A DNA stretch of 64,000 nucleotides. It comes from Leifsonia sp. C5G2 (GTDB lineage Bacteria > Actinomycetota > Actinomycetes > Actinomycetales > Microbacteriaceae). The stretch's first letter is position 1. Every line of letters begins with the position of its first letter. The notes beneath the pieces were generated by a model. It was not told the DNA's origin, made no database searches, and saw only the letters and a program-made list of their open reading frames with translations. This document shows, in pieces, positions 55,947 through 58,912 of this stretch. The stretch is from assembly GCF_013359685.1 (NCBI RefSeq), contig NZ_JABFMV010000001.1:128858-192857 (forward strand), in the 5' to 3' direction. Both the position numbers and the translations under genes were made by a program.

Positions 55947-57086
55947 TCAGAACAGCGTCGGCTGCACCCCCAAGCCGGTCAGGGAAGCGCTGACGAGCGA
56001 GGCGGTGTCCGGCGCCTCGGAATTCGAGCCGGCCGTCCGGATCGCCGACCCGACGACCTGCCGCTCCCCCTCGTCGTCGCGCAGCATTCCGAGCGCGCTC
56101 GACCGGACCCCGCCGGTCAGCGGGTCTTCCCGACCGCGCTCCAGTCCGTGCGACCGGATCAGCGGCTTGATGCGCGCCGCCAGCCACGCCCGGTACTCCT
56201 TGGGCGCGTAGGTGCCGCGACCGTACATCGCGCGATACTGCGGCAGCAGCTCGGGGTGCTGCTCGCCGAGCCAGAGGTAGAACCACTCCTTGACGCCGGG
56301 CTTCAGATGCAGTGCCGAGTAGAGCACCGAGGTGGCGCCCGCCTCCTTCGCCTGCCGCAGCGCCTCGTCGAGGTGGGCTCGCGTATCGGTCAGGTACGGC
56401 ATGATCGGCATCAGGAACACGCCGCAGTCGAGACCGTGCTCGCGCACCGCGGTGACCGTCGCGAGCCGGGCCTTGGTCGTGGGCGTGCCCGGCTCGACCG
56501 ACTGCTGCAGTTCGTCGTCGTAGACCGCGATCGACATCGCGAGGTCGACGGGGACTCGCTTGTTGGCCTCCACCAGACGGTCGAGATCGCGCCGCAGGAG
56601 CGACCCCTTGGTCAGGATGCTGAACGGCGTGCCCGAGTCCGCCAGCGCATCGATGATGCCCGGCATGAGGGCGTACCGCCCCTCTGCCCGCTGATACGGG
56701 TCGGTGTTGGTGCCCAGGGCGACGGGATGATGCCCCCAGCTCGGCTTCGACAGCTCTTTGCGCAGCACCTCGGCGACGTTGACCTTGACGATGATCTCGT
56801 TGTCGAAGTCTTTGCCCGAGTCGAGGTCGAGGTAGGTGTGGGTCGGCCGCGCGAAGCAGTAGACGCAGGCGTGCGAGCAGCCCCGGTAGGGGTTGATGGT
56901 CCAGCCGAACGGCATCGGCCCGCCCCCGCCCGGGACGCGGTTGAGCGCCGACTTCGCCAGCACCTCGTGGAACGTGATGCCGGCGAAGTCGGGCGTGCGC
57001 ACGGAGCGCACCAGGTTGTTCAACCGCGCGAGCCCGGGGAGCGCCGACGGCTCGTCGACCGACAGCTCCTGACTACTCCAACGCAT
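55947..57086 (-). CDS. Radical SAM protein, Rv2578c/SplB-like
   Basis: The 379-residue protein has the cluster motif RGCSHACVYCFARP (Cys70, Cys74, Cys77). It has the INPYRGC and NTDPYQRAEGRY pattern of the Rv2578c family, which is distantly related to spore photoproduct lyase and PA0069-type proteins. LTKGSLLRRDLD and the (beta/alpha)8 core are intact; the substrate is unknown. A perfect LexA-type box lies 8 bases upstream of the ATG, so it is probably induced by DNA damage, and I infer a repair or nucleic-acid role. Confidence 0.88.
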   Translation of the reverse strand: MRWSSQELSVDEPSALPGLARLNNLVRSVRTPDFAGITFHEVLAKSALNRVPGGGGPMPFGWTINPYRGCSHACVYCFARPTHTYLDLDSGKDFDNEIIVKVNVAEVLRKELSKPSWGHHPVALGTNTDPYQRAEGRYALMPGIIDALADSGTPFSILTKGSLLRRDLDRLVEANKRVPVDLAMSIAVYDDELQQSVEPGTPTTKARLATVTAVREHGLDCGVFLMPIMPYLTDTRAHLDEALRQAKEAGATSVLYSALHLKPGVKEWFYLWLGEQHPELLPQYRAMYGRGTYAPKEYRAWLAARIKPLIRSHGLERGREDPLTGGVRSSALGMLRDDEGERQVVGSAIRTAGSNSEAPDTASLVSASLTGLGVQPTLF

Positions 57087-57093
57087 GGCTTCA

Positions 57094-57111
57094 TTCGAAC
57101 ATACGTTCGAA
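57094..57111 (-). promoter_or_regulatory. LexA (SOS) box upstream of the radical SAM gene
   Basis: TTCGAACATACGTTCGAA is a perfect inverted repeat and matches the SOS box consensus TCGAAC-N4-GTTCGA of mycobacteria and other actinobacteria. It fills the 27-base gap between the ABC-F stop (57114) and the radical SAM start (57086). A possible -10, TATGTT, lies within it. Confidence 0.85.
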
Positions 57112-57113
57112 CA

Positions 57114-58727
57114 TTAAGCAAGGTGGACGCTCCCCCCACTCCAGCGCGACCGCAGCCACCGGTCGTGGCTCGCGACCACGACCGCTCCGGGATAGGCGCC
57201 GAGCGCCTCCTCCAGCTCTGTCGCGAGAGCGAGCGACAGGTGGTTCGTCGGCTCGTCGAGGAGGAACAGGTGCGGCGGCCGCGCCACGATCAGTGCGAGC
57301 GCCAGCCGGCGCTGCTGCCCGACCGAGAGGGCGCCGACCGGCCGGTCGGCGTCCCTCGGCGCGATCAGCCCGAGCGAGATCAGCGGAACGGTCTCCGCCC
57401 GCCTCTCGCCCATCGTCGCCGCGTAGATGCGGCGGGGCGACGCCGACGGATCGGCGAACCGCACATCCTGCTCCAGCAGCGCCACCCGGAGCCCGCGCCT
57501 GCGCTGCACGGTCCCGGCGGTCGGCTCGAGCCGGCCGGCCAGCACCGAGAGAAGCGTGGACTTGCCCGCCCCGTTCGCGCCGGTGACGAGGATCCGCGCG
57601 TCGGGCGCCACGCTCAGCTCCTCGAGCTGCAGACGCCCGGGGATTCGCACCTCCCGCGCCTGCACGAGCAGCCCGGAGCCGTCGCCCAGCACCTGGAAAC
57701 CCGACGGGATGCCGGCGAACGTCAGCGGAGCGGGCGGCTTGCCCACCTGCGCGTCGCGCAGCTCGTCGAGCCTCCCCTCCGCGTTCCGGACACGGCGGCT
57801 GATCTGACGATCGAGCGTGTTGCCCTTGTACGACTTCGCGAACTTGTCGTTGTCGCGCACCTTCCCCGACCAGGCGATGGAGCGAGCGGTCACGTCGACG
57901 GCGTGCTTCAGCTCCGTGAGCTCCGCCTGCTCGTCGGCGTACTGCTTCTCCCACCGGGAGCGCTCCGCAGCCTTCTCGGACAGATAGTCGCTGTAGCCGC
58001 CGCCGAACACCGTCGTACCCGACCGAGCGGGGTCGAGGTCGAGCAGGCCGGTCGCCACCCCGTCCAGGAAGGCCCGGTCGTGACTGGCGAAGACGACCGG
58101 TCCGGGCCACGACCGGAGCTGGCGCTCCAGGAAGCCCGCCGCCTCGTCGTCCAGATGGTTGGTCGGCTCGTCGAGCAGCAGCGCGTCCGGGCGGCCGAGC
58201 AGCAGAGCCGCGAGCGCGAACCTGCTGCGCTGACCGCCGGAGACCTCGCCGAGGCGCCGGGCCAGCGGGATGCCGCCGACCCCCAACCCGTCGAGCAGCT
58301 CGTCGCGGCGTGCGTCGATGCTCCAGATCTCGGCACGCTCGGCCGCCGCCAGTGCGGTGTCGTAGCGGGCGTCCGCCGTCGGGTCTCCCGAGCCGAGCGC
58401 CGTCGCCGCCGCCTCGAGCTCGCGCTCGATCGCGCGGACGTCGGCCAGCGCGTGCTCGATGAGGGCCGCGAGCGTGTCGCCCGGCTCGAACCGGACCTCC
58501 TGCCAGAGGAAGCCCGTGCGCGGCGGGCGGGACAGCGTCCCGGAGTCCGGAGTCTCCGCCCCGGCGAGCACGCGCAGCAGCGTGGACTTGCCCGCGCCGT
58601 TCTCGCCGATCAGGCCGAGCCGGTGTCCCGGCGCGACGGTCAGCGAGACGTCGGTGAGCACCCGGCGATCGCCGTAGACGACGGAGACGCCGTCGGCGCG
58701 CAGGGGTGCGAGGGTGATGGTTGGCAT
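57114..58727 (-). CDS. ABC-F family ATP-binding protein
   Basis: The 537-residue protein has two ATPase domains and no membrane part. First domain: GENGAGKSTLLRV (about 40), SGGQRSRFALAALLL, ALLLDEPTNHLDDEAA. Second: GANGAGKSTLLSV, LSVGQQRRLALALI, LFLLDEPTNHLSLALA. The linker between is about 90 residues, charged and helical (AAERSRWEKQYADEQAELTEL). Both signatures are intact enough for hydrolysis. ABC-F proteins bind the ribosomal E site and either rescue translation or protect against antibiotics. The structured leader with a tiny ORF favours the resistance type. ATG at 58727, ribosome-binding site GGAAAGG. Confidence 0.9.
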   Translation of the reverse strand: MPTITLAPLRADGVSVVYGDRRVLTDVSLTVAPGHRLGLIGENGAGKSTLLRVLAGAETPDSGTLSRPPRTGFLWQEVRFEPGDTLAALIEHALADVRAIERELEAAATALGSGDPTADARYDTALAAAERAEIWSIDARRDELLDGLGVGGIPLARRLGEVSGGQRSRFALAALLLGRPDALLLDEPTNHLDDEAAGFLERQLRSWPGPVVFASHDRAFLDGVATGLLDLDPARSGTTVFGGGYSDYLSEKAAERSRWEKQYADEQAELTELKHAVDVTARSIAWSGKVRDNDKFAKSYKGNTLDRQISRRVRNAEGRLDELRDAQVGKPPAPLTFAGIPSGFQVLGDGSGLLVQAREVRIPGRLQLEELSVAPDARILVTGANGAGKSTLLSVLAGRLEPTAGTVQRRRGLRVALLEQDVRFADPSASPRRIYAATMGERRAETVPLISLGLIAPRDADRPVGALSVGQQRRLALALIVARPPHLFLLDEPTNHLSLALATELEEALGAYPGAVVVASHDRWLRSRWSGGSVHLA

Positions 58728-58912
58728 GGGAACCGCCTTTCCGGGCGCTCCACAGGGAGCGGGTTCCCGCCGGGCGATCTCCGTCGTGAGCGGCGCCGGA
58801 GCGCCCAGGCGCCTGACCGGGCAGCGCGGTGACCGAAGAGTCCTCACTCACATCGACGGCGCCTCAGGCGCGGGACGTCAGGAGGTTCTCACTTCATAGC
58901 GTGGATGACCAT
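58728..58912 (-). promoter_or_regulatory. Structured leader of the ABC-F gene, candidate attenuator
   Basis: Just before the ATG a two-part hairpin forms: outer GGGAACC/GGTTCCC (58768-58762 with 58734-58728) and inner CGCTCC/GGAGCG. The ribosome-binding site GGAAAGG (58742-58736) lies in the unpaired part between them, and the 3' arm touches the start codon. Upstream are further GC-rich repeats (GGCGCC-type) and a small ORF at 58889-58912. Promoter candidates TTTACA and TATGGT, 18 bases apart, lie near 58910-58937. Confidence 0.55.
58889..58912 (-). CDS. Possible leader peptide MVIHAMK
   Basis: ATG-GTC-ATC-CAC-GCT-ATG-AAG-TGA is a seven-codon frame 160 bases upstream of the ABC-F start. No ribosome-binding site is visible. 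If the TATGGT promoter is used, transcription would start inside it and leave only the inner ATG-AAG-TGA. It is a candidate sensor for stalled ribosomes, not a proven gene. Confidence 0.25.
   Translation of the reverse strand: MVIHAMK

Follow-up and report, generated by a model that had tools for sequence, protein, structure and literature searches.

We consider it reasonably probable that the radical SAM gene described here, which lies behind a LexA box in the 64,000-nt stretch of the Leifsonia sp. C5G2 genome that we analysed (the window), encodes a LexA-repressed, clamp-recruited radical enzyme that acts on a DNA lesion other than the spore photoproduct. The gene combines an SOS switch at its start with a tail that resembles a clamp-docking peptide at the end of its product, suggesting that the enzyme probably works on damaged DNA.

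Judged by its sequence, the protein is a full-length member of the Rv2578c family (NF038135), at 503.6 bits, over the cut-off of 430, and with residues 1-315 aligned to positions 1-316 of the 317 in the profile; its only Pfam match at E 0.001 was PF04055 (Radical_SAM). We see no essential difference from that family, in which the MRW start and a LexA box by the start codon are also found; the MRW start recurs among the relatives collected here. We know of no tested function for any Rv2578c-family protein. Upstream, on the same strand, an ABC-F gene ends with a TAA stop 27 bp before the radical SAM ATG, so that the box occupies most of the gap between the two genes. The best model matches of this ABC-F ATPase (window positions 57114-58847) are to TlrC/CarA-type ribosomal protection proteins, all of them under the cut-off. 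Because a consensus promoter scan did not call the TTGCTT-17-TCGAAT match that can be read by eye across the box (Table 1), we treat this promoter as putative; the LexA box would cover most of its spacer and part of its -10 element, and a transcript from it would begin at about the ATG and be leaderless. A promoter-like match at 55901-55873, on the same strand, precedes the downstream histidine-kinase-like ORF, a hint that the radical SAM gene may stand alone as a transcription unit; it probably forms a single-gene SOS unit.

Table 1. Positions in the window of the radical SAM gene and its sequence features.
Feature	Position	Strand	Basis
LexA (SOS) box TCGAACATACGTTCGA	57095..57110	.	Pattern scan; recurs 5' of relatives
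Candidate core promoter, TTGCTT (57121-57116)-17 bp-TCGAAT (57098-57093)	57093..57121	-	Read by eye; weak match
Rv2578c-family radical SAM gene	55947..57086	-	ORF; 379 aa; ATG start (57086), MRW...
CX3CX2C motif for putative [4Fe-4S] cluster, C70/C74/C77	56856..56879	-	Three Cys kept in 174/174 relatives
Disordered C-terminal tail (predicted), residues 320-379	55950..56129	-	AlphaFold2 pLDDT <50 at 320-331, 333-379
QPTLF, beta-clamp-binding-like motif, very C-terminus	55950..55964	-	Motif comparison; consensus from PMC11139829 (in part)

The first-pass annotation had singled out the box as an ideal LexA site, the only one noticed in the window, lying right before the start of the gene. The site is present exactly as written there, at 57095-57110, and 8 bp (57087-57094) separate it from the ATG; CGAACN4GTTCG occurs at five places in the window when one mismatch is allowed, and the radical SAM box is the only exact occurrence. 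In shuffled windows, the box with up to three mismatches was matched a mean of 0.31 times per window. In the 4.09-Mb genome, CGAACN4GTTCG has 15 exact matches and the backwards pattern three. Five of the 15, as read by eye, extend to the full TCGAACN4GTTCGA: those at the radical SAM gene, at an ORF with DUF6504, at a putative ImuA'-like ORF, on the uvrA side, and at locus L007, which has a G+C-rich spacer. Six places in the genome lie within two mismatches of TCGAACATATGTTCGA, namely those at the radical SAM gene, recA (PF00154), the DUF6504 ORF, an ORF without a Pfam match that we read as ImuA'-like, a small ORF also without a Pfam match, and beside uvrA (PF17760, PF17755). The DUF6504 ORF, of 96 aa (L018:1501-1825), has in front of it a 16-base box identical to that of the radical SAM gene; the small ORF (L020:1501-1863) stands behind a two-mismatch LexA box and is a candidate SOS gene; and the full TCGAACN4GTTCGA adjoins uvrA at L021:1480-1520. 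One lexA was found in the genome; a site with three mismatches lies some 160 bp ahead of where its match begins. The genome also has dnaN. The sequence marks of an actinobacterial LexA regulon, a GAACN4GTTC-type box by the start of the gene and lexA in the same genome, are both found here.

To look for the box across the phylum we began with 396 Actinomycetota genomes; 133 gave a match at E 1e-60, and in 53 of these the match exceeded the cut-off. We examined 127 of the 133, leaving out the window's own genome, one genome with the gene in two fragments (G303) and four with the gene near a contig end (G120, G130, G238 and G301). An exact GAACN4GTTC lies between -200 and +30 of the match start in 98 of the 127 loci, but in just 4 of 2540 shuffled sequences and 4 of 1907 other windows from these loci. 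The exact box is absent from the 12 loci of a divergent subgroup, and no alternative common box stood out there by eye, as inverted repeats or as 8-mers; the tail motif is kept in all eight readable proteins of this subgroup. Without these 12 loci, the exact core is found in 98 of 115 and at least seven of the eight core bases in 110 of 115; the second test is looser, and 142 of 1726 other windows satisfy it as well. A comparison of 30 genomes, with the value for our own box carried over from the window scan and not recomputed, found the exact core upstream of the radical SAM gene in 25 and upstream of recA in 17. In genome G327 of family f8, recA and the radical SAM gene deviate from the core alike (GTAC for GAAC), and in G192, of the same family, the same core base is altered in both, but to a different letter in the radical SAM gene than in recA; our own reading is that the operator may be drifting along with its repressor. 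The exact core is found in 14 of 17 loci of family f7, which, in view of Rv2578c, looks mycobacterial to us, and GGGAACN4GTTCTA is common at the loci of family f6.

Within the window's own family, the gene is present in 85 of 120 genomes; among the genomes without it, 20 were listed, 13 of them smaller than 2.5 Mb. We read 70 of the 85 gene-bearing genomes, leaving intein-bearing copies aside, and two of the 70 loci lack upstream sequence. The exact core was found in 41 of the remaining 68 and at least seven of the eight core bases in 64, and in 63 the start of the best box is 24 or 25 bp upstream of the ATG. In the phylum sample, 30 of the 127 loci (L046, L066, L073, L079 and 26 others) carry an intein-like insert with a long match. 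Its junction, HNC[FY]AR, is identical in all 30, and a strict pattern confirms 27. The insert interrupts the iron-sulphur motif immediately ahead of its third cysteine (C77), such that the motif would be assembled only once the insert is spliced out.

The proteobacterial sister genes are of the type of the PA0069 family (NF033668), whose profile gives the window protein 213.5 bits, below its cut-off of 360; relatives of the PA0069 type are 30-37% identical to the window protein (alignment of 63 of the 80 loci described below). They share with it LexA-type boxes and a C-terminal clamp-like motif, and differ in having a longer N-terminus and CTGTN8ACAG or GTTCN7GTTC instead of GAACN4GTTC. We examined the 80 best loci out of 590 confirmed ones in genomes, which is not a random sample; nearly all have proteobacterial titles, and class labels were taken from the record titles. 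In this set, 27 of 29 alphaproteobacterial loci have GTTCN7GTTC, on either strand, ahead of the gene; of the 41 beta-, gammaproteobacterial or unspecified loci, 28 have CTGTN8ACAG, and one of the 41 also has the alphaproteobacterial pattern. Both boxes are absent from 12 of those 41, from all seven xanthomonad-type loci and from the single Legionella locus; the alphaproteobacterial pattern occurs in one of the two loci titled from other phyla. Elsewhere in the same 80 loci, GTTCN7GTTC was found in 6 and CTGTN8ACAG in 1 of 1860 control windows. To our knowledge, Legionella has no LexA. In Legionella adelaidensis (L163:649-3397), the PA0069 gene lies head to head with a PolX gene, its product ends in QLDLFAGIV, and the box types sought were not found. 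Seven of ten plasmid-borne relatives are proteobacterial, four of them annotated as PA0069 family. Six of these seven are preceded by an exact GTTCN7GTTC or CTGTN8ACAG, and the Legionella plasmid copy by neither. The plasmid-borne Arthrobacter, Tsukamurella and Gemmatirosa loci have no exact core, with a near box visible by eye in Arthrobacter. Taken with the actinobacterial box, the class-specific counts imply that the sister families carry three LexA-type operators. The SOS link proposed at first pass stands far above chance and recurs both in the actinobacterial relatives and, with other operators, in Proteobacteria.

The second feature of the protein is its tail. Clamp ligands follow the consensus Q-aliphatic-x-[L/M]-[F/L], or a version one residue longer, and in Pol II and Pol IV the clamp peptide is C-terminal (PMC11139829, in part). 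The proline at position 2 puts the window's QPTLF outside the strict published form; its C-terminal position and a pLDDT below 50 are those of the flexible tail of a clamp ligand. Beyond the core, 27 diverse relatives have a linker that varies and an end of similar sequence (QPTLF, QLTLL, QLSLL, QATLF), and the glutamine is invariant in a 15-sequence alignment that spans both phyla. We counted the motif in 94 actinobacterial proteins (intein-free, complete, 230-520 aa) and in the same mostly proteobacterial best 80 of 590. The loose pattern Q..[LMIFV]x, sought in the last 16 residues, matches 76 of the 94 and all 80; it is generous, matching 51 of 1273 neighbouring ORFs as well. A strict motif within two residues of the end is found in 56 of the 94 and 71 of the 80, but in just 1 of the 1273, which are often not real genes and so serve as a control of composition more than of proteome. 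A narrower pattern matches 71 of 94 and 77 of 80, where shuffled ends would give 3.9 and 8.0. The published consensus in the last 12 residues matches 34 of 94 and 61 of 80, rising to 63 and 66, against 3 of 1273 neighbouring ORFs, if proline at position 2 and a terminal isoleucine are allowed. Eight more distant relatives were fetched as controls for the tail; a Paenibacillus protein (QQGFE) meets only the loose pattern. A distant Roseburia radical SAM relative (L288:1070-1933), outside both families, likewise has a clamp-like end, QQSLFD, a point against the clamp reading.

An alternative possibility is that the SOS box is real and the LF tail is something other than a clamp motif, such as a degradation tag, a domain contact or another element. 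Indeed, the glutamine is kept in 40 of the 70 own-family proteins and absent from 30, with the LF end retained in 69 of 70, and phylum-wide the loose pattern is absent from 18 of the 94. We nonetheless consider this unlikely, since the residues preferred in the motif (Q-L/M/P-x-L-F/L) are similar to those of established clamp ligands, one natural ligand, the delta subunit, binds the clamp without a glutamine (PMC11139829, in part), and the tail is predicted to be disordered, with a variable linker.

Neighbouring genes were clustered across the 80 mostly proteobacterial loci, and ten cluster representatives were scanned against Pfam. Three have no match; the others are an RNase HII, a glycosyltransferase, a carbonic anhydrase, a DNA methylase, a MoCF domain protein, a peptidase M3 and an AsnC-type regulator. 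As far as these representatives go, the recurring neighbours appear to lie mostly outside DNA repair, which counts against a repair role. Of the 29 alphaproteobacterial loci, 18 have an RNase HII gene on the same strand 3' of the radical SAM gene and 10 have a CcrM-like DNA methylase, with one representative annotated per cluster (examples at L209:3882-4844 and L185:3209-4471). Both neighbours would suit an SOS-induced, clamp-bound enzyme whose target is not a base, but RNA or ribonucleotides in DNA, a molecule of the nucleotide pool or a clamp-bound protein; RNA and protein modification are widespread among radical SAM enzymes. The RNase HII cluster is, however, confined to alphaproteobacteria, and the predicted fold is of the type of spore photoproduct lyase (SPL); we regard such a target as rather unlikely.

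That fold bears on the label "SplB-like" given at first pass. An AlphaFold2 model of the window protein (mean pLDDT 78.0, pTM 0.78, 64 sequences) has SPL as its closest match in Foldseek (best E 5.0e-10) and in VIA-align, where SPL structures align with Z 20.5-20.9 over 267-277 residues at an rmsd of 3.3-3.9 and the next protein scores 15.7. Among solved structures, SPL also tops the weak sequence-profile matches (E 0.002), narrowly ahead of SkfB, a RiPP enzyme (0.0024); a profile comparison by hhalign aligned only 67 columns, and the place of the fourth SPL cysteine falls outside them. SPL (PF20903; PDB 4FHC and related) thus has the fold, the CX3CX2C motif and an EPxT stretch in common with the window protein. 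SPL requires a fourth cysteine as hydrogen donor and a tyrosine relay (PMC3742179, in part). By contrast, the window protein's family has no conserved fourth cysteine: the three cluster cysteines are kept in 174 of 174 relatives, and the next best cysteine column reaches 56 of 174. At the inferred place of SPL C141 (Bs numbering) or C140 (Gt numbering), which comes from our own anchoring of the SPL TSD to NTD, no cysteine was found in the 170 of 174 relatives that could be matched; 26 of the 170 have one a few residues away. The SPL relay tyrosine (Y99 Bs, Y98 Gt) falls on the residue after the third cluster cysteine, which is F78 in the window protein and, in the 174 relatives, phenylalanine in 138, tyrosine in 34, leucine in one and unmatched in one. 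Nor did PF20903, the Pfam model of SPL, match the window protein at E 0.001. The "SplB-like" label therefore holds for the predicted fold, and fails for the catalytic residues and for the SPL Pfam model.

A true SPL, repairing 5-thyminyl-5,6-dihydrothymine, would account for the clear margin by which SPL is nearest in predicted fold, for its first place among the weak profile matches and for the frequent SplB annotation of Rv2578c-type proteins (PMC12924846, in part). We reject SPL membership, and think this function very improbable, because of the missing PF20903 match and the absent catalytic residues. In addition, PF20903 proteins are separate: they occur in 9 of 198 actinobacterial genomes, seven of which also have an Rv2578c-type gene, and the seven actinobacterial PF20903 proteins read, of ten loci, have neither the exact core box nor a clamp-type end. 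The combination of an SPL-like predicted fold with missing SPL residues suggests that the family has an SPL-like frame without being SPL. Lastly, that the box is a chance palindrome or part of the end of the ABC-F gene, whose stop codon is 3 bp away, has next to no likelihood and is rejected on the shuffle controls and on recurrence upstream of relatives, including the near-constant spacing in 63 of 68 own-family loci and the exact core at 98 of 127 loci phylum-wide.

We propose that the gene is a LexA-repressed one whose product is recruited by the clamp to lesions other than the spore photoproduct, as follows. LexA would sit on the box, overlapping the probable core promoter beside the start codon, and keep the gene off; DNA damage would lead to RecA-driven cleavage of LexA and turn it on. 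Enzymes of the radical SAM superfamily use a [4Fe-4S] cluster to cleave SAM to a 5'-deoxyadenosyl radical, and here a cluster on C70, C74 and C77 would generate that radical. The disordered 60-residue tail, through its QPTLF end, would dock on the beta sliding clamp and deliver the enzyme to sites of replication or repair, as for SOS polymerases. There the radical would attack a damaged DNA nucleotide, and the most likely outcome would be that a pyrimidine lesion or crosslink is reversed or processed. Given that the hydrogen-donor cysteine and relay tyrosine are absent, the lesion and the chemistry should differ from those of spore photoproduct repair. The loci in which none of the sought boxes was found, in the divergent actinobacterial subgroup and in part of the Proteobacteria, weigh against this reading, as does the prophage insertion in Streptomyces described below.

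SOS control of radical SAM genes is already in print. Rv2578c is reportedly in the published LexA regulon of M. tuberculosis, and PA0069 in that of P. aeruginosa. A radical SAM protein belongs to the predicted core Gram-positive LexA regulon, in an analysis that took in M. tuberculosis H37Rv and Leifsonia xyli (PMC7739468), and a Streptomyces venezuelae radical SAM gene, vnz_31145, which is a candidate relative, is in a LexA regulon table drawn from mitomycin RNA-seq and ChIP-seq; its box as listed there is unlike the GGGAACN4GTTCTA of the f6 loci (PMC9380542). The gene splB is predicted to be LexA-controlled in alpha- and betaproteobacteria (PMC3323433) and in Bacteroidetes (PMC8565304), and SplB-like genes are linked with ImuB-C operons (PMC3765255). 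Perhaps the splB of the proteobacterial SOS studies is the PA0069 family. A Streptomyces homologue is a phage attachment site, and the prophage inactivates it without evident cost; the authors doubt the SplB label and call a role in DNA repair speculative (PMC12924846, in part).

A search of the open-licence literature for radical SAM proteins with a clamp-binding motif, or with a sliding clamp and LexA, did not find the clamp tail. Pol II, Pol IV and Pol V are under LexA control, and ImuB, too, is clamp-bound. The SOS-induced, clamp-bound Pol II, Pol IV and Pol V have a clamp peptide (PMC11139829, in part), comparable to the clamp-like end of the radical SAM protein; those are polymerases, whereas here the clamp-like peptide would carry a radical enzyme. 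If the tail does bind, the new element would be radical chemistry delivered by the sliding clamp.

We know of radical DNA repair only from spores, where it works without the clamp. As a tentative extension, which we would put short of probable, the genes described here may form a widespread SOS class of Actinomycetota and Proteobacteria, under three LexA operators, in which clamp-tethered radical SAM enzymes perform replication-coupled radical repair, either reversing a lesion or crosslink directly or cleaving it by radical chemistry. Predicted LexA regulons from several phyla repeatedly include radical SAM genes labelled "SplB", none with a tested function that we know of; the common label is probably misleading as to the chemistry, and the conserved clamp-like tail makes recruitment to replicating or repaired DNA a testable claim.
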